IMG/VR virus record: IMGVR_UViG_3300042923_001008
Span: 1 to 44,603 of that record
Reading direction: 5' to 3' (one strand)
DNA: 44,603 nt
Source: a virus
Shown: positions 3,878 to 44,603 of the stretch, in pieces
Position numbering within the stretch: the first letter of the stretch is position 1
How the letters are laid out: each line of letters opens with the position of its first letter
Program-made: the position numbers and the translations under genes
The notes under the pieces: generated by a model
What the model was told of the DNA's origin: nothing
Database searches by the model: none
Seen by the model: only the letters and a program-made list of their open reading frames with translations

Positions 3878-5083
3878 ATGAATATATTAAATATAGAGGA
3901 ATTTAATGTACTAAAACAGGAAGAAAATGAGTTTGATTACAGGTTTACTGTAGAAGTAAAGGAAGAACCGGACTTTTGTCCAAACTGCTTGAAGAACGGC
4001 AAGTTCATAAAGCACAGCATCAAGGAAAGAGAAGTGTGGGATTTAGATATGCACAGCAAGAGAGTAAAGATAGTAATCAGGCAGCGTAGGTATAAATGTC
4101 CATACTGTGGAGCGACATTCTATGAACTCCTCAACTCAGTAGCAACAAACGCTAAGATTACAACCAGGCTGTATAAAAAACTGCAAGATGCAGGTCTACA
4201 GCACCCTTTCACACAGGTTGCAGGGACATACGGCGTTAGTCATATGACGGTTAAAAGAAGCGTTCAAGACTATATAGATAAAATGGACAAACTAAGAGAA
4301 GTCAAAGCCCCACGTGTTATAGGTATAGACGAAGCACATCTAAATAAGACGTTTCGTGGAGTAATTACGGACATACAGAATAGGCAATTGATTGAGTTGT
4401 TGCCAATAAATACAAAGAAGGAAGTTAAGAAGTTTATATCATCATTACCTGGCTACAAAGACATAGAAGTCGCAACAATGGATATGGCTCCTGCATACAA
4501 ATATGCAATGAATGAATTAGTTCCAAACGCACTTTGTATAGTAGATAAGTATCATGTCATACAAGCGTCAAATAGGGCTTTTAACAAAATTAGAACTGAA
4601 CTTAAGGGTTCTATATCTAAAGAGCAAAAGAACCTGCTTTTAAGGGATAGATGGGTGCTTTTAACTAACAAAGAAAGCCTGGACGAAAAGGCAAAAGCAA
4701 TGAGAGACCGTTGGTTTAGTCAGTTTCCGATACTTGCAACAGCGTACTGGATCAAAGAAGGGCTTAGAGACATATATAACGCTGTGGACAGATATGAAGC
4801 CTTCCAAATGTACTATGCTTGGGAATGTAGTATTCCGCAAGACATGAAGGAATATCAAGCCGTAAGAAATATGATAAATGGCTGCAAACAAGAGGTATTT
4901 AATTACTTTCTTACAGAGACAAAGTATACAAATGCTTATACAGAAAGTATCAATAATCAAATTAAGCGTATTGAAAAGATAGGCAACGGCTATTCATATG
5001 AAGTGTTAAGAGCAAAGATTTTGTACAAGTCTGCTTTAGAAGATAAGCCTAAATATGGCTCTCAAGGCTTCACAGAAATATGA
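3878..5083 (+). CDS. ISL3-family transposase (401 aa)
   Basis: Cuts and joins element ends. The N-terminal zinc-finger pair CPNC (about 35) and CPYC (about 76) is followed by an HTH near residues 95-130. The DDE catalytic domain has VIGIDEAH (first Asp about 150), a second acidic block ATMDMAPAYK (about 207) and a C-terminal glutamate in NAYTESINNQIKR (about 358). This order is diagnostic of the ISL3 family. The length is near the usual 400-430 residues and no frameshift is seen, so it may be active. It sits in the early operon in the direction of transcription. Base composition is slightly richer in G+C than its neighbours, which suits later arrival. Confidence 0.93.
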   Translation: MNILNIEEFNVLKQEENEFDYRFTVEVKEEPDFCPNCLKNGKFIKHSIKEREVWDLDMHSKRVKIVIRQRRYKCPYCGATFYELLNSVATNAKITTRLYKKLQDAGLQHPFTQVAGTYGVSHMTVKRSVQDYIDKMDKLREVKAPRVIGIDEAHLNKTFRGVITDIQNRQLIELLPINTKKEVKKFISSLPGYKDIEVATMDMAPAYKYAMNELVPNALCIVDKYHVIQASNRAFNKIRTELKGSISKEQKNLLLRDRWVLLTNKESLDEKAKAMRDRWFSQFPILATAYWIKEGLRDIYNAVDRYEAFQMYYAWECSIPQDMKEYQAVRNMINGCKQEVFNYFLTETKYTNAYTESINNQIKRIEKIGNGYSYEVLRAKILYKSALEDKPKYGSQGFTEI

Positions 5084-37268: not shown

Positions 37269-38522
37269 ATGAATTACTTAGTAATATTGGATGCTGGCCA
37301 TGGCTTGGATACATCAGGGAAGAGAACACCTCTCTTTTCTGATGGCTCTTTCATGCGTGAAAATGAATTTAATCGTTCAGTTGTAAGAAAGATAGATGCT
37401 ATTTTGGAACAGTTTGAAAATATAGATGTGGTATTTACAACAACAGAAAAAAGAGAAATTGGCTTACAAGAAAGAGTAATACGAGTTAATGACTTATATG
37501 ATAAAGTAAAGAGCCTATATGATAAAATCGTCTTGGTATCTGTACATGCTAATGCACTAAACGGATCATGGGGAACACAAAACGGAACATCAACATATCA
37601 TTATCCCGGCAATCAAGTTGATAAAGAATTTGCTACAGTGATTAATAATAATTTAATTGCTAAGACAAAGTTATTTAACCGTGGTGTTTTAGAGGGTAAC
37701 TTCCAGATAGTAAGAGAAGTAAAAATGCCTGCTTGCCTTTGTGAATGTGCTTTTATGGATAATTTGACAGAGGCAAAGTTATTATTAACTGATGAATTCA
37801 GACAAGCATGTGCAGAAGGCATTAAAAGCGGTTTAATCGAATATTTTGGAATGAACAAGCAAATAGTCAATGTTGAATATTCTGCGACTACAAACGGCAC
37901 GTATCAACTTAAGGGTTATGTAGAAGACTTTGGTGTAAAGATAGTTAATAAAAAAAATACTGCTATTGAAGAACCATTTTGCACAAATGGTACTTTCTTT
38001 TGGAATGATACTTTAGGAGCAAAGTATTCAACAAGTATTTTATATGCAGACGGTGTAATTTATCAAAACTATGCAAATCACCTTCCTTGTGCTCAAAACG
38101 TATTTATAGTTTTTAAAGACGGCAGAGTAAAAATGATGAAGCTAAGAAATCTAAGCGAATTAAACTTAGATACTGTTCGTATTGCAATAGGCGGTATTGG
38201 GTTAAGGAATACGCAAGATGCTACATTCAAATATGATCCAGCAGCAGAAGGATTTGCCGGTGCATTCTCAGATGTGCTGAGAAGAACCAATAAAACGGTT
38301 ATAGGATATAATGTTAAAGAAAATAAAATATGTTTGATGTGCCGAAAAAATATTATACATAGTGGCACACTATATGACTTATTGGAACTTGTAAAAGATT
38401 GCGAATTTGATATTGCTTTATCAGTAGATGGTGGAGGCTCATCATTCATGAACAATGCTGATGAAATGGTTCTTAATGGGGATGGAAGGGTTATTCATAA
38501 TATAATTGGCTTTGGACTTTAG
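37269..38522 (+). CDS. Endolysin: Amidase_3 plus phosphodiester-glycosidase-like domain (417 aa)
   Basis: N-terminal N-acetylmuramoyl-L-alanine amidase (Amidase_3): DAGHG (zinc His), ENEFNRS (Glu), VSVHANA (His) and CLCECAFMDN (Glu) by about residue 165. The C-terminal half (about 200-417) resembles a NAGPA-type phosphodiester glycosidase, with AIGGIGL, NKTVIGYNVKEN and the closing SVDGGGSSFMNN, NIIGFGL. In most endolysins this end is a cell-wall-binding domain. It would cleave the amide link of peptidoglycan, and the second domain may bind or cut an extra wall glycan. No signal peptide, so holin is needed. Confidence 0.93.
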   Translation: MNYLVILDAGHGLDTSGKRTPLFSDGSFMRENEFNRSVVRKIDAILEQFENIDVVFTTTEKREIGLQERVIRVNDLYDKVKSLYDKIVLVSVHANALNGSWGTQNGTSTYHYPGNQVDKEFATVINNNLIAKTKLFNRGVLEGNFQIVREVKMPACLCECAFMDNLTEAKLLLTDEFRQACAEGIKSGLIEYFGMNKQIVNVEYSATTNGTYQLKGYVEDFGVKIVNKKNTAIEEPFCTNGTFFWNDTLGAKYSTSILYADGVIYQNYANHLPCAQNVFIVFKDGRVKMMKLRNLSELNLDTVRIAIGGIGLRNTQDATFKYDPAAEGFAGAFSDVLRRTNKTVIGYNVKENKICLMCRKNIIHSGTLYDLLELVKDCEFDIALSVDGGGSSFMNNADEMVLNGDGRVIHNIIGFGL

Positions 38523-39351: not shown

Positions 39352-39378
39352 ATGTTTGAAACAATTAAGGAGGCATTG

Positions 39379-40380
39379 ATGGAAGATAGTAAGGAATTAA
39401 TCATCATAAAAATTTTGAGTGAATTGCAAGAAAAGTATCAGATAAATAATATTGATGTGAAAAACATTCTTGAAAGAAATTTGGAAAATTATAGCCTGAT
39501 TTCAAATGAGACTGCATTGATGGTGTCAGATCTGCCGGAGAAGGTAAGGTTCTTCATTGGCCTGAAGTCACTTGAAGGGTTATCTAAATTATCACTGAAG
39601 AGATATCAGGAAGAACTGGCCATGTTTCAAAGGTATGTCAACAAGCCGGTATGCCAGATAACTGTTAATGATATCAGAAGGTATTTTGCGATGATACAAT
39701 CAGAAAAAGAATATCAGAAAATCACTATTAACGGAAAGTTAAGTATATTGCGAAGTTTTTTCGGAACACTATATAAGGAAGAAATGATTGAAAAAGATCC
39801 TACAGTCAGACTGAAAAATATCAAAGTTGATGTGAAGTCTTTGAGGGACCATCTTACGGCAGAAGAGTTGGAGATAGTAAGGAACGCCTGCAGCAATATC
39901 CGGGAGAAGGCAATAGTTGAATTTCTTTATAGTACCGGCTGCAGGGTTTCGGAAGTCACTAATACTAAGATTTCAGATTTAAACTGGAATGAGAACAGTC
40001 TTATGGTCCATGGCAAGGGAGATAAATTCAGAATTGTTTATTTCTCGGTTAAGTGCAAGATCTACCTGAAAGAATATCTTGAAAAAAGGAATGGAGAAAG
40101 TGAAATACTTTTCGTTGGTGAAAGGAAACCGTACATCCCACTTAACAAATCAGGCATTGAAAAAATAATTAAGAAGATTGCTTCCAGAACAAACATAAAG
40201 AAAAGCATTTATCCGCACATTTTCAGGCATACATTTGCAACTCTGGCACTACAAAGAGGCATGGACATCACGCTCATTCAGCAATTATTGGGCCATACCG
40301 AAATCAATACTACGCAGATTTATGCGAAGACAAGCACGAAGCAATTGCAAATTGCGTACGAAAAATTCATAGCAGCATAA
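39379..40380 (+). CDS. XerD-like tyrosine recombinase (333 aa)
   Basis: Start ATG 39379 behind AAGGAGG; upstream in-frame ATG 39352 has no site. The N-terminal extra region (1-60) is followed by a core-binding SAM-like domain (about 62-145, SKLSLKRYQEELAMFQRYV). The catalytic domain has STGCRVSEVTNTK (Arg), HGKGDKFR, HIFRHTFATLAL (His, Arg), LLGHTEINTTQIYA (His, Tyr). All catalytic residues are there. It is the third site-specific recombinase in this phage. Its base use is a little richer in G+C than the flanks. Near-identical 15-base repeats stand either side, so it may move a cassette of its own. Confidence 0.93.
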   Translation: MEDSKELIIIKILSELQEKYQINNIDVKNILERNLENYSLISNETALMVSDLPEKVRFFIGLKSLEGLSKLSLKRYQEELAMFQRYVNKPVCQITVNDIRRYFAMIQSEKEYQKITINGKLSILRSFFGTLYKEEMIEKDPTVRLKNIKVDVKSLRDHLTAEELEIVRNACSNIREKAIVEFLYSTGCRVSEVTNTKISDLNWNENSLMVHGKGDKFRIVYFSVKCKIYLKEYLEKRNGESEILFVGERKPYIPLNKSGIEKIIKKIASRTNIKKSIYPHIFRHTFATLALQRGMDITLIQQLLGHTEINTTQIYAKTSTKQLQIAYEKFIAA

Positions 40381-40444: not shown

Positions 40445-40771
40445 TTACGGATAATTTTCATCCTCTAAAACAAAGAAATTATTAAATAATCCTAGAACCT
40501 TATATTTGTATTCTTCGTTTTCTAGTCTGTATAAACTATATAATTTATAATCCTCTCTTATCACTGAAGTGTCTGCAATCATTTCAACCATAAAATTCAT
40601 AACAGACTTCTCAAATTCTGTAGTTTCTTTTCCTTCTTTATATTGTGTAAAACCCTCCTGGGCTTGCTGCTTATACCATTCTTTATAATCGGCATAACTT
40701 GGATTAGTTGCAACTCCGAATATTATTATTAATATTGATGCTAACGTAATGATTATTACATTCCTTTTCAT
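40445..40771 (-). CDS. Exported DUF4359-like protein (108 aa)
   Basis: Starts behind TAGGAGAAAC on the minus strand. An N-terminal hydrophobic helix (MKRNVIIITLASILIIIFG) then ATNPSYADYKEWYKQQA, the pattern of DUF4359, a small family with a single membrane helix or signal and an outward domain. The rest is helical and acidic and ends VLEDENYP. It is transcribed leftward from the repeat-rich gap at 40772-40880, opposite the RHH-like gene. Function is unknown; a surface location could fit lysogen-expressed exclusion. Confidence 0.75.
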   Translation of the reverse strand: MKRNVIIITLASILIIIFGVATNPSYADYKEWYKQQAQEGFTQYKEGKETTEFEKSVMNFMVEMIADTSVIREDYKLYSLYRLENEEYKYKVLGLFNNFFVLEDENYP

Positions 40772-40880: not shown

Positions 40881-41054
40881 TTGGCTAAGAATACAATTCC
40901 TGCAGACGCTATAAGCTATAAGAATACTCGTGAAGATATTGAATTGAAGGAATGGCTAAATACTAAGAGTTGCAAATCAGCATTTATCAAAGATGAACTA
41001 AGAAAAGTAATGAAAGTAGAAAAGCAAAAAGAGACATTTCTAAGATTAGAATAA
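40881..41054 (+). CDS. Ribbon-helix-helix-like small protein (57 aa)
   Basis: TTG 40881 behind GAGGGATGTGAT. It reads MAKNTIPADAISYKNTREDI, then ELKEWLNTKSCKSAFIKDEL, and a charged C-terminal helix. The layout (short strand, helix-turn-helix with a KSAFIKDEL second helix) suits an RHH DNA-binding protein of the ParR/CopG group, frequent at the start of plasmid and conjugative-element operons. It opens the final rightward cluster. It probably autoregulates that cluster through the repeat array upstream. Confidence 0.65.
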   Translation: MAKNTIPADAISYKNTREDIELKEWLNTKSCKSAFIKDELRKVMKVEKQKETFLRLE

Positions 41055-41059
41055 CAAAT

Positions 41060-41124
41060 GCTCCCCCGACTCCTGGCAGAGTAAATTAAGGGAGAGCAAA
41101 ACCACCGATAAAGGGTAGTGTTTT
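41060..41124 (+). ncRNA. Structured leader with two hairpins before the VirB2-like gene
   Basis: GCTCCCCC (41060-41067) pairs with GGGAGAGC (41090-41097) with one mismatch and a 22-base loop. Next, AAAACCACC (41098-41106) pairs partly with GGTAGTGTTTT (41114-41124), leaving an internal loop. No long T-run follows. They stack without gap and may form an attenuator or a separate RNA. No riboswitch class is recognised. Confidence 0.4.
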
Positions 41125-41174
41125 ATATGCTATCACAAAATTTATTAAAAACAAATCGAATTTTGGAGGTAGTT

Positions 41175-41573
41175 ATGGAAATAAAAAAAGCACACAAAAG
41201 TGCTAATGTTTTTGCCTTACAACAAGTTGTAATTCAAAATATGCGACAACTTTTCAAAAAATGCATGTCTACAGATAAACTGTTCTTAAAAGTCATATTT
41301 TTACTCTTCATTTTTCTATTTTATTCTACAAATGTTTATGCTATGGATACTTCAAGAATTGACAATGCCGGAAGACGGATTTACTACTTTGTGGTTGCTC
41401 TTGGTAAATGGGTTATAATTGTTAAAGGTGCTGTAGATGTAATCACCGCAGTCGTTAACGGCGATTTCCAAAATGCAAAAAAATTATTTATCGGTTACAT
41501 ATTCGCATTCGGAATACTATTTGCTATGCCATGGATGTTTGATGAAATAGAAAATATATTTAAAGGGATGTGA
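41175..41573 (+). CDS. VirB2/TrbC pilin-like membrane protein (132 aa)
   Basis: ATG 41175 behind TTGGAGG; the frame is open from 41118 but with no ribosome site. A 37-residue charged lead is followed by a signal-like helix (LFLKVIFLLFIFLFYSTNVYA). After a likely cut site come two helices: YYFVVALGKWVIIVKGAVDVITAVV and LFIGYIFAFGILFAMPWMF. This two-helix layout with a signal and a short loop (NGDFQNAKK) is that of VirB2/TrbC-type pilins or the short T4SS membrane proteins of Gram-positive conjugative elements. The unusually long lead before the signal is odd. It stands 4 bases ahead of the next gene. Confidence 0.6.
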   Translation: MEIKKAHKSANVFALQQVVIQNMRQLFKKCMSTDKLFLKVIFLLFIFLFYSTNVYAMDTSRIDNAGRRIYYFVVALGKWVIIVKGAVDVITAVVNGDFQNAKKLFIGYIFAFGILFAMPWMFDEIENIFKGM

Positions 41574-41577
41574 TATC

Positions 41578-41784
41578 ATGGAAGCTGTTTATAAATTTGC
41601 TGAAACCATGAACATAATCTTTGAAGTAATCTTTCATCCAATTCGAACTTTACAGGGTATCAGCTATGCGGTATGTCTTGTCTGCTCCGGGATGATGATA
41701 ATATTAGGTATAATCGGATTCAAAAACTGCTATAGGTACGCAGCTATGTTCTTAATTTTATATCTATTCATAAATCTACTGTGA
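41578..41784 (+). CDS. Small two-helix membrane protein (68 aa)
   Basis: ATG 41578 behind AAAGGGATGTGAT. An amphipathic start (MEAVYKFAETMNIIFEVIF) followed by two membrane helices (ISYAVCLVCSGMMIILGIIGF and YAAMFLILYLFINLL) with a short turn (KNCYR). No family is recognised. Such small membrane proteins sit between VirB2-like and ATPase genes in Gram-positive conjugation loci. The gene lies 10 bases ahead of the ATPase start, implying a complex with it. Confidence 0.65.
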   Translation: MEAVYKFAETMNIIFEVIFHPIRTLQGISYAVCLVCSGMMIILGIIGFKNCYRYAAMFLILYLFINLL

Positions 41785-41794
41785 GGTGAAGATC

Positions 41795-44041
41795 ATGAAG
41801 ATAGAAACCATAAATCCTGAATATATTTATTTAAAAGTTATTCCGGTAACAAGTGTCCGAAACAATGATTCTTATAAAGTAGCTCAGGCTATTCAATCAA
41901 CATATAAACCATTTCTTAGCAGATTTACATTTCACGATTACAAGGAGTTATTTAATACGACATTTCCCCAGCTGATAAAATATGAGCTTCCTTGTAAAAC
42001 CTCATATATGATATATATTACTAAGAAAGTCGTTGAATTCTATTTTATAGTTGATAAAAAATATAAATGCATTCTCAAAGAAGCTCTAGGTCGAGTGTGG
42101 CCTTCAGTAACTATTTACGAGACAGTAAATTTACCGATGTTCTCATCAAACGCAATGTATAAGCAGCTTGTTTATGCTAAAGAGGATGCCTTAAGTCTTG
42201 CAGTAGATAGAAGAGACAATGAGCTCATGGCCAACAACTTAAATATTATTGATGTACTGCAAGAGACTGACAAGGTTGGAATTTTTTATAATTTTATTCC
42301 GGTAAGCCAACACTCCTGGAGAGCAACGTATAAAAACACAATAAACAAATATATCGCAGGAGCCCCAGTTGACAAGAACAAAGTTAATGCAACCTATGCA
42401 GTAAAAACAATCATAAATGAGATTTACAATCTGCTGAATTCATTTAACACTTCCAATAAGATAAATATACTGAGCACAAAAGAACTTTCGAAAATAACCC
42501 AAAATAAGGCCTCAGAATTCATAGTTAATACACAGATTGCTTTAATATCTGACAGTCATAACAAATTAAACAGTATAAATAATTTACGTTCCGTTGCCAA
42601 TAGCTTCAGGTCAATTGATGATGATAACTATTTGAAATATAAATCAACCAAAAAGTTTAATCATAATGATCTAAATATAGGCACTGAAATCAATAAATGC
42701 AGCTTAAAAGAAATTGGTAACTTTATATCACTGCCAGGCAGAGAGCTGCTTGAACGTTTCGGAATTGAACATATTAACACATTAGAAGTTGAGGTTCCGG
42801 AGGAGTTGAGAAACGGTTATATAAAATTAGGCTGCAATACTTTTAAGGGTAATGCAATTACTACCACAATGAGTAAAGATAAGAATTTAGCGAATCTGGG
42901 GCTTGTGCTGCTAGGTCCACAAGGCTGTGGCAAAAGTACTTTCATTGGGAATTATGCAAAAGATGCTTCGGGATCAGGTGAAGGTGTTATACTTATTGAC
43001 TACATTAAGAACTGCGAATTATCATCAGAAATTGAAAAGGTTGTTTCATATAATAGATTAATAATCATAGACTTATCAAAGCAGGAGCAGATGCAGTCAT
43101 TTGGGTTTAATGAAGTGAGTAACTTTAATCCAAAGTCCACCTATGAAAGTTTGGAAGTAGCAAATATGCAGACACAGCTATTAATTGCTTTTATAGATGC
43201 TATCAATCCAGAGCAACAATTAACACCAAGAATGCGTAGATCATTAGCTTCAGCTGCTAACATTGTATTCATTCATCCTAACATGTGTATGAGAAATGTG
43301 TATGAATGTCTAGCAGATCATAGAAAAAGGCAAGAATACATCAACCTGGTGCCAGATGAAATGAAATCTTATCTGCAAGATGATATATTTAACCTGATTG
43401 ATATGAACGAATATGACAATAAGACCGGTGAGACAACTGGAACCAAATCAAGCAAGAATGAATTTGTAATGGACCGTATCAGTATTCTTATGGAAGATAT
43501 AAAGCTCAAGTATATGTTTAACAAGAACATGGATGACAATATAGACTTTGTTAAGGCAATGGACCAAGGTAAGGTGATATTAATTAAAATGCCTGACAGC
43601 AAATATCCAACAACAGTTCATAAAAATATTCTAACAACATTCTTTGTCTCTAAAATATGGCTTGCAAGTCAATTAAGAGGCGGTATGTATAAAGAGCCAA
43701 CTAGAACGCATGTAATAATTGATGAGGTGTTCCAGGCTCCTACAACTGAATTTATACTTAAAGACATTCTGGTGCAAGCTAGAAAGTTTCAGACGAAGTT
43801 TGTTTTTTCAGCACATTATCTAAGCCAAATTGAAACAATCAAGGAAGCTCTTAAAGCTTCCGGAAGTAGTTACATGATGATGCAGGGAACGGATAAGAAG
43901 AACTTTGAAGAATTGAAAGAGGACCTGGCTCCATTTGAGTTGCAGGATCTTCTAAACCTGAAGAGGTACTATAGTCTTAACCTTATAAAAACATCCAACG
44001 GTTATGCTAAATTTATTACAGAGTTGCCTAAACCAGTTTAA
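41795..44041 (+). CDS. VirB4/HerA-type AAA+ ATPase (748 aa)
   Basis: ATG 41795 behind GAGGTGAAG; GTG 41786 is inside the ribosome site. The first 330 residues are soluble with strand-rich blocks (YIYLKVIPVTS, YYFIVDKKY-like) and match no domain I know. An ATPase follows: Walker A LGPQGCGKST (about 372), IILIDYIKNCE, LIIIDLSKQE, Walker B HVIIDEVFQAP (about 648) and a C-terminal FVFSAHYLSQIETIKEAL sensor-like segment. This is the HerA/VirB4/TraG-like FtsK superfamily. No membrane helix. In type IV secretion such proteins power pilin dislocation or DNA transfer. No relaxase, VirB6, VirB8 or lytic transglycosylase genes are nearby, so a full channel is absent. Confidence 0.82.
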   Translation: MKIETINPEYIYLKVIPVTSVRNNDSYKVAQAIQSTYKPFLSRFTFHDYKELFNTTFPQLIKYELPCKTSYMIYITKKVVEFYFIVDKKYKCILKEALGRVWPSVTIYETVNLPMFSSNAMYKQLVYAKEDALSLAVDRRDNELMANNLNIIDVLQETDKVGIFYNFIPVSQHSWRATYKNTINKYIAGAPVDKNKVNATYAVKTIINEIYNLLNSFNTSNKINILSTKELSKITQNKASEFIVNTQIALISDSHNKLNSINNLRSVANSFRSIDDDNYLKYKSTKKFNHNDLNIGTEINKCSLKEIGNFISLPGRELLERFGIEHINTLEVEVPEELRNGYIKLGCNTFKGNAITTTMSKDKNLANLGLVLLGPQGCGKSTFIGNYAKDASGSGEGVILIDYIKNCELSSEIEKVVSYNRLIIIDLSKQEQMQSFGFNEVSNFNPKSTYESLEVANMQTQLLIAFIDAINPEQQLTPRMRRSLASAANIVFIHPNMCMRNVYECLADHRKRQEYINLVPDEMKSYLQDDIFNLIDMNEYDNKTGETTGTKSSKNEFVMDRISILMEDIKLKYMFNKNMDDNIDFVKAMDQGKVILIKMPDSKYPTTVHKNILTTFFVSKIWLASQLRGGMYKEPTRTHVIIDEVFQAPTTEFILKDILVQARKFQTKFVFSAHYLSQIETIKEALKASGSSYMMMQGTDKKNFEELKEDLAPFELQDLLNLKRYYSLNLIKTSNGYAKFITELPKPV

Positions 44042-44085
44042 AAATATATAATGTAAATAAAAATGAACTAGGGAGATTAATAACT

Positions 44086-44412
44086 ATGGAAAACTTAAGT
44101 ATTGATATAAAAGATGTTACAGCATTGGTTGAAGACTATATTCATCTTAGTGCAGCTGATCAAAAAGAAATTAGAAGTAAAGTTTTTTATAAAAGATGTT
44201 TCGGACATATTTTACAAAATAAGCCGAAGGAAGAAGCAATAAAAGAAATCAATGAAAAATTAGAAATTATGTCTAAAATTATAAAATTAAATGATGAACA
44301 GTTAAAGGAATTAATAGAAAAGGCTAAAATTAACGGAATAGATTTTAATAATGATAAAGAGTCCGAACTTGAGACTATTGAAATAAATATAAAATTTAAA
44401 AATATTAACTAA
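44086..44412 (+). CDS. Last cluster protein, helical (108 aa)
   Basis: Start ATG 44086 preceded by AGGGAG. A charged helical protein starting MENLSIDIKDVTALVEDYIH, with the segment DQKEIRSKVFYKRCFGHIL and lysine/glutamate-rich C-terminus. No known motif; no membrane helix. It follows the ATPase by 44 bases, runs the same way and is closed by a strong terminator, so it is likely in the same transcript. An accessory or immunity-type role would be speculation. Confidence 0.75.
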   Translation: MENLSIDIKDVTALVEDYIHLSAADQKEIRSKVFYKRCFGHILQNKPKEEAIKEINEKLEIMSKIIKLNDEQLKELIEKAKINGIDFNNDKESELETIEINIKFKNIN

Positions 44413-44415
44413 ACT

Positions 44416-44448
44416 AAAAGAACTGCCATAACAGACAGTTCTTTTAGA
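44416..44448 (+). terminator. Terminator at the right end of the prophage
   Basis: AAAAGAACTG (44416-44425) pairs perfectly with CAGTTCTTTT (44436-44445), 10-base loop. It closes the last gene just before attP. A matching A-run on the left lets it act from the other side as well. Confidence 0.88.
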
Positions 44449-44457
44449 ATATTGCTT

Positions 44458-44503
44458 TTGCATTTTGTCGCTGTCTATGCACATAGATAATGACAAAATG
44501 CAA
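44458..44503. other. attP: attP of the serine integrase
   Basis: TTGCATTTTGTC (44458-44469) and GACAAAATGCAA (44492-44503) are perfect 12-bp inverted arms around a 22-base centre. The midpoint falls between 44480 and 44481, giving the non-palindromic dinucleotide CA inside the core ATGCACATAG, which is also the start of the attL repeat at 98. A 46-bp site with such arms and an asymmetric central pair fits large serine integrases. The right half of this site is found at 113-124 in attL; the left half is replaced there by feoB. Confidence 0.85.
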
Positions 44504-44603
44504 TATAATTAATATTATATTTTCCAATGAAATTTCAATGTTCTACCGTCTATTTCTATAAAATCAATCAGTGTTGTTACGAATGTCCTTTGTTCTTCGA
44601 TTG
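44477..44603. repeat. 127-bp exact direct repeat, right copy (attP side)
   Basis: Identical to 98-224. Here it follows phage sequence, so it shows the left phage end again after the right end. Length 127 equals a k-mer size in common use in de Bruijn assemblers, which suggests a contig that walked around the excised circle (or a tandem copy) and stopped at the branch to feoB. Confidence 0.9.
44515..44603 (-). pseudogene. int: Repeated 3' end of the serine integrase gene (partial, window edge)
   Basis: The last 89 bases repeat the integrase C-terminal codons and stop codon at 136-224. It is a second view of the same gene end on the circular or tandem form, cut by the window edge. It should not be counted as a separate gene. 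Confidence 0.85.

Follow-up and report, generated by a model that had tools for sequence, protein, structure and literature searches.

A phage-borne cassette with a VirB4-fold ATPase, a candidate minimal relative of type IV secretion systems

We analysed a DNA window of 44,603 nt, the IMG/VR virus record IMGVR_UViG_3300042923_001008 at its full length, and within it a cassette of five tightly spaced open reading frames (ORFs) on the plus strand (40881–44412), followed by a terminator-like inverted repeat (Table 1). A preliminary description had placed five such genes and a terminator at 40881–44445; all of them were located, and the start sites were corrected. ATG 41175, with the ribosome-binding site GGAGG, is the most likely start of the pilin-like ORF, GTG 41118 giving a longer alternative reading, and the ATPase starts at ATG 41795 (ribosome-binding site GAGGTG). 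The gap between the pilin-like gene and that of the 68-residue protein is 4 nt, and the next one, before the ATPase gene, is 10 nt.

Table 1. Features of the cassette and of its surroundings in the window (RHH, ribbon-helix-helix; aa, amino acids).
Feature	Position	Strand	Remarks
RHH-like protein, 57 aa, first gene of the cassette	40881–41054 (TTG 40881)	+	ORF; weak PHROG matches only
VirB2-like pilin (candidate), 132 aa	41175–41573	+	Leader, signal sequence, two hydrophobic helices; alignment of relatives
Two-helix membrane protein, 68 aa, virB3 position	41578–41784	+	Homologous to C-terminal M23 membrane anchor
VirB4-like ATPase, 748 aa	41795–44041	+	N-terminal VirB4 domain 1–333, RecA-like motor 333–748
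Predicted helical protein, 108 aa, accessory	44086–44412	+	Unconserved in relatives
Terminator-like inverted repeat	44414–44447	.	14 pairs
Putative antisense small RNA, window copy of the element	41189–41270	-	Antisense to first 32 pilin codons
DUF4359 secreted-protein gene	40445–40771	-	Divergent, beside cassette; Pfam PF14271, 1.6e-6
Lone XerA/XerC-like tyrosine recombinase	39352–40380		Besides serine integrase at 136–1548; also adjoins Sedimentibacter cassette
Endolysin-type amidase fused to phosphodiester glycosidase (NAGPA) domain	37269–38522		
Transposase-like gene, early region	3878–5083		phrog_5749, 6e-104

The profile search by which the preliminary description meant to sort the ATPase led to PHROG 5156, whose function is unassigned there (full-length match, 9e-96), and to no type IV secretion system (T4SS) or HerA profile of Pfam or NCBIfam. 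A sequence search of the PDB and a single-protein pattern scan of viral contigs each returned no match. An AlphaFold model was built with 12 relatives (predicted local distance difference test, pLDDT, 82.5), and Foldseek ranked TrwK/VirB4 of R388 first for it (1.4e-13). With VIA-align, the motor (residues 333–748) scored Z 27.9 against Thermoanaerobacter VirB4 (4ag5, 336 residues aligned) and lower against DndH (26.0), TrwB (25.9) and HerA (23.9). Since the motor alone left the family undecided, residues 1–337 were modelled separately (pLDDT 82.0, predicted template-modelling score 0.82). The only standouts for this N-terminal domain were TrwK/VirB4 chains (Z 14.2–15.1, 231–241 residues, root-mean-square deviation (rmsd) 3.3–4.0); the best TrwK match reached Z 15.1 over 235 residues (rmsd 3.3), the next fold, an ESX-3 protein, 8.6, and Foldseek concurred for the isolated domain. 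Walker A (G374–K380), Walker B (D643 E644) and R663 K664 are kept across 8 divergent relatives. The protein has no transmembrane helix, unlike VirD4 and TcpA. As judged from these models, the ATPase is a whole VirB4 by fold, with both domains and intact catalytic residues, outside existing sequence profiles. The VirB4 half of the earlier label 'VirB4-HerA ATPase' is thereby upheld in both domains, while the features tested do not make the locus a HerA defence locus.

The predicted product of the second gene begins with a basic leader, after which a hydrophobic stretch runs to VYA (a signal-peptidase-like A-x-A); two more hydrophobic helices follow, joined by a short polar loop. A signal sequence plus two such helices is the topology of VirB2 pilins; Pfam gave no pilin match. 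Most of 16 relatives have the same plan in this slot; the SPO1 protein in the alignment is much shorter. In the virB3 slot, Paenibacillus, Desulfosporosinus and other relatives encode an M23 peptidase (PF01551, 4.5e-27). Its membrane anchor, at the C-terminus, is a homologue of the two-helix proteins that stand alone elsewhere (E as low as 1.8e-10; hidden Markov model match of the window copy, 6.9e-6); a wall peptidase has thus either been fused to a two-helix subunit or split from one. In two Paraclostridium-type cassettes (L014 and L022) the slot holds a different secreted protein of ~210 aa, without a Pfam match. The reading of the 68-residue protein as a plain VirB3 was set aside: because it is homologous to the M23 anchor and also resembles the paired helices of some pilins, only 'virB3 position' is a safe designation. 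The first gene, RHH-like, stands in relatives in the ParR position after a filament gene, and persists where the filament gene is gone, as in the window.

Searches by tblastn with four family members matched 35–61 phage records each. The carriers are SPO1 and its relatives, Goe26, LysYB1/2, TP-84, D6E, GBK2, SPP1-like phages, 055SW001-type phages, Ray17, vB_BpsM-61, vB_BboS-125, phage G, Slash/Staley/Stahl, FADO/PJN02, Alicyclobacillus phage MMB025 and Terrisporobacter phage TPDSL_ph2; neighbouring genes of the cassette were seen in SPO1, SPP1-like phages, TP-84, vB_BpsM-61, Ray17, Goe26, FADO, Staley and vB_BboS-125. Prophage carriers occur in Paenibacillus, Peptostreptococcaceae and Sedimentibacter. 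A Slash/Staley-type ATPase is also found under a cyanobacterial label, in Microcystis phage MaeS (MT362618.1), whose host may be mislabelled. Scanning genome contigs brought up eight loci, the nearest, in Sedimentibacter acidaminivorans, with 78% identity in the ATPase and, in common with the window, XerC-like and DUF4359 genes upstream (the latter at L015 5579–5893). There, host genes follow the cassette directly and the 108-residue gene is missing, which places this gene outside the core: what the preliminary description had taken for a fifth member is a real ORF, and the set that recurs in phages and prophages is the core without it. Surveys found carriers in 14 of 297 Paenibacillaceae, 19 of 71 Peptostreptococcaceae and 2 of 398 genomes phylum-wide, the last being uninformative because the cassette is so rare there.

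The plasmid collection gave only two distant matches, neither of them mobilizable, so the ATPase is not an ordinary plasmid gene. This bears on the alternative that the preliminary description had named, a decayed remnant of an integrative and conjugative element captured by a phage. Such an origin would fit the virB2-3-4 order, and one chromosomal relative (G003, locus L018) has a MobC/relaxase pair ~2.4 kb away and a TraG-type ATPase at a distance of ~9 kb. However, G003 was the single genome with a relaxase near the cassette among 28 carrier bacterial genomes tested, the other 27 having none nearby; all genes of the cassette are intact, and it is conserved in about 60 phage records. This origin is already largely refuted, and we consider it highly improbable.

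Genes for DNA-segregation filaments travel with the cassette. An actin-like ALP_N gene lies upstream in SPO1 (gene 27.9; 2e-27), FADO, vB_BboS-125, Sedimentibacter (L015), an IMG/VR contig and most Paenibacillus cassettes, and was also recorded at L012 and L018; at two Paenibacillus loci TubZ takes its place (tubulin in L019). ALP_N genes occur in 8 of 11 Paenibacillaceae carriers, at about one per genome, and in 7 genomes one lies 2–3 kb upstream of the cassette, which chance does not explain (roughly estimated at 0.3% per genome). The arrangement recalls the ParM/Alp7A-ParR and TubZ-TubR systems, which many relatives encode just upstream of the cassette, with the RHH gene in the ParR position, whereas the window retains the RHH-like gene alone. 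An automatic tally of 54 loci, some of them related, gave pilin-like genes at at least 41, RHH-like genes at 32, filament genes at 20 and, at 12, either a wall hydrolase or the secreted protein of 210 aa; these are minimum counts, since small genes escape automatic gene calling. The label 'stand-alone' of the preliminary description holds only in part: relatives have a peptidoglycan hydrolase, a filament gene and the conserved RNA element treated below. In SPO1, the ATPase gene is directly followed by that for gp27.3 (L004 8657–9481), a Replic_Relax protein (PF13814, 2.9e-12) that could act as a partner in DNA processing in this branch. In several Paenibacillus genomes (L017, L086, L087 and L089), genes recognised by eye as encoding an AgrB-like protein and an AgrD-like peptide follow the ATPase gene.

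A two-block motif, GGACRYGCA-N17-19-GCATA(M)GCT, came up in a search for promoters and accompanies most cassettes in one orientation or the other: it stands ahead of the RHH gene, in the RHH-pilin gap, inside the pilin gene or after the ATPase gene. A hairpin usually follows it, and often an intrinsic terminator. Across 31 instances the mean folding z was -2.07, and a terminator was present at 16 of them versus 2.4 expected; in six Peptostreptococcaceae copies, both sides changed with pairing kept at 7 of 17 consensus pairs. The window copy consists of the blocks AGACATGCA-N17-GCATA (41240–41270), then a hairpin, and ends at its 3' side in a terminator-like hairpin, AGCACttttgtGTGCT (41189–41204), followed by T7; its match is exact, where 0.01 would be expected with two mismatches allowed. 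A blind scan of 2.9 million viral contigs by DNA pattern only returned 11 loci, GBK2 and SPP1 included, of which six carry the ATPase, two are truncated and carry the RHH gene of the cassette, and three look like chance coding matches. A looser upstream motif, GGACAGGCA-N-ACATA, was unspecific (30 viral loci, 0 with the ATPase), and a third pattern matched at two loci, of which only GBK2 has the cassette. Rfam assigned eight element loci to no family. We regard the element as a conserved DNA/RNA element and a putative small RNA linked to the cassette, whose GGAC and GCATA blocks may be a promoter or belong to the RNA. Besides it, another noncoding stretch, with GAGCC...GGCTC and GAATTATAAAAATATAATTC hairpins, is conserved in the RHH-pilin gaps of L002, L022, L064, L067–L074 and L079.

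Taken together, these observations lead us to favour, with roughly even confidence, the explanation that the cassette encodes a phage envelope translocon, a minimal relative of the T4SS inner membrane (VirB2-like, VirB3-position, VirB4) with DNA as its probable cargo. The virB2-virB3-virB4 order and the topology match, and unrelated phages keep the unit; the 'reduced secretion-derived complex' of the preliminary description is well supported by this order, the full VirB4 fold and the recurrence in phages. The pilin-like and two-helix proteins would form a pore or a short pilus base in the cytoplasmic membrane, and the VirB4 motor would extract or assemble them and/or pump the substrate. Where present, the M23 peptidase would open the wall so that the device could cross it. 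The RHH protein would mark the cargo; on that reading phage DNA is the likeliest substrate, as the repeated link with segregation genes also suggests; the filament, where encoded, would bring phage DNA to the membrane or pole. The linked small RNA would probably tune pilin expression. The whole machine may be an accessory for conditions that ordinary plaque growth does not reproduce.

The closest precedent is SPP1, for whose gp31.1/31.2/32 a trans-membrane translocon was proposed in 2018 by Godinho et al. (PMC6316719). SPP1 gp31/gp31.1/gp31.2/gp32 and the GBK2 counterpart have an RHH-position gene, a pilin-like, a two-helix and a VirB4-like ATPase gene in the same order as the window, and the RNA element upstream (L115 and L105). 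SPP1 differs in being obligately lytic with the cassette on an early transcript (PMC6316719), whereas the window is a clostridial temperate phage with the element antisense inside the pilin gene. In the literature outside subscription journals, we found a phage type IV secretion module described only in the SPP1 paper, which contains no VirB4 fold analysis, survey, or filament, M23 or RNA link; new relative to that proposal are the VirB4 fold in both domains, the broad survey of carriers, the association with filament and peptidase genes, and the RNA element. The inner-membrane complex of R388 (TrwK/VirB4, TrwM/VirB3, TrwL/VirB2) shares the two-domain VirB4 fold and the virB2-virB3-virB4 order; unlike it, the window has no VirB6, VirB8, VirB10, VirB11, VirD4 or relaxase. 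Phage G encodes a fuller complex in gp153–gp156 (L099 1770–7334): a TrbL/VirB6-like gp153 (1.8e-11), a small protein, a TraG-type VirB4 gp155 (1.6e-15) and gp156, a member of the same ATPase family as the window protein. VirB6 was found in phage G only, and the row gives this jumbo phage an almost full inner-membrane set of a T4SS.

Several points weigh against the translocon explanation. The VirB4, TraG and HerA profiles of Pfam and NCBIfam, including PF03135 and PF19044, miss the ATPase. The small proteins were assigned by topology and position, and the RHH fold of the first gene is weakly supported, by position and pattern: Pfam did not confirm it for the window copy, and a relative, vB_BboS-125 gp18, gave a weak RHH_1 match (E 0.02). 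That DNA is the cargo is something we infer. With VirB6, VirB8, VirD4 and relaxase missing from the window cassette, 'works like part of a T4SS' is the apt wording, and not 'is a T4SS'. Finally, SPP1 can do without genes 31.2 and 32 under laboratory conditions (PMC6316719).

The surroundings of the cassette bear on a possible role in defence. The window carries terminase, portal, head protease, major capsid, tape measure, holin and amidase genes and a large serine integrase. A direct repeat of 127 nt, exact over its length (98–224 = 44477–44603), implies that the right end continues into the integrase, so that the excised circle (44379 bp) is represented together with attL; the window is a complete temperate phage, and from the repeat and the genome layout the cassette sits att-proximal, beyond the lysis genes. 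Bases 1–97 are host DNA and encode a fragment of a Gate-domain protein (E 0.0044), FeoB-like by eye; a feoB-like gene is probably the integration target. The second recombinase, XerA/XerC-like, is possibly a dimer resolvase.

Many exclusion genes share this prophage position between lysis genes and att, and the cassette might accordingly act in superinfection exclusion or in anti-phage or anti-plasmid defence, as a membrane complex in which a VirB4/HerA-type motor blocks or destroys incoming DNA. Its dispensability in SPP1, the likeness of its fold to the HerA and DndH motors and a weak similarity of the ATPase to MADS mad8 (1e-14) would fit. However, mad8 was its sole match in the defence library; the other four cassette proteins matched nothing there and the partner mad genes were not found. 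HerA-SIR2, HerA-DUF4297, DndH and mad8 share the RecA-like motor superfamily with the window ATPase, but its N-terminal domain is VirB4-like and no nuclease, SIR2, DUF4297 or other effector partner is adjacent. The recurring partners (pilin, wall peptidase and filament genes) suit transport rather than cleavage. The cassette is moreover present in the obligately lytic phages SPO1, SPP1 (gp31-32) and TP-84, and in phage G, which together with its early, dispensable state in SPP1 weakens the earlier suggestion of a cargo that protects lysogens. We found no specific support for a defence role and hold it to be somewhat unlikely.

VirB4 is required for pilin handling in known systems, and the pilin-like protein has a signal peptide; a device that secretes protein or builds a short surface pilus during infection or lysogeny, moving no DNA, would account for both. 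Several phages encode secreted proteins beside the cassette (DUF4359 in the window; signal-peptide proteins in TP-84 and vB_BpsM-61), but no effector gene is common to the relatives, and such a device would not explain the repeated pairing with DNA-segregation genes. We judge it unlikely.

A more specific form of DNA transport would be entry into the spore. SpoIIIE pumps the chromosome across the sporulation septum, and the cassette might similarly carry the phage genome into the spore, the filament and RHH protein leading it to the pole and VirB2/3/4 with the peptidase pumping it across the septum. The annotated hosts of carriers are all spore-formers, except in the one suspect record, Microcystis phage MaeS. 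SPO1-type capsid phages number 634, of which 494 infect Staphylococcus, Enterococcus, Listeria or Lactobacillus; none of these 494 was among the ATPase matches, and the Herelleviridae with the ATPase are SPO1-type Bacillus phages and two Lysinibacillus phages. Among Peptostreptococcaceae, 18 of 54 SpoIVA-positive genomes were carriers versus 1 of 17 SpoIVA-negative (Fisher p 0.03). The phylogeny of phages and hosts and the prophage load are confounders that could produce this pattern. Sporulation sigma-factor promoter patterns upstream of 41 cassettes showed no convincing enrichment (sigK-like 4 versus 0.8 expected, sigE-like 1, sigF/sigG 0), leaving spore entry without promoter support. We consider it quite unlikely.

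Tailed phages are not known to require a membrane motor of the secretion type. The presence of a VirB2-3-4 core in many unrelated phages of spore-formers, the model phages SPO1 and SPP1 too, together with filament genes, a wall peptidase and an RNA element of its own, points to a step in the phage life cycle that has gone unrecognised. As a translocon, the cassette would show how far a T4SS can be reduced while still being selected, and the RNA element provides a specific handle for locating further copies.

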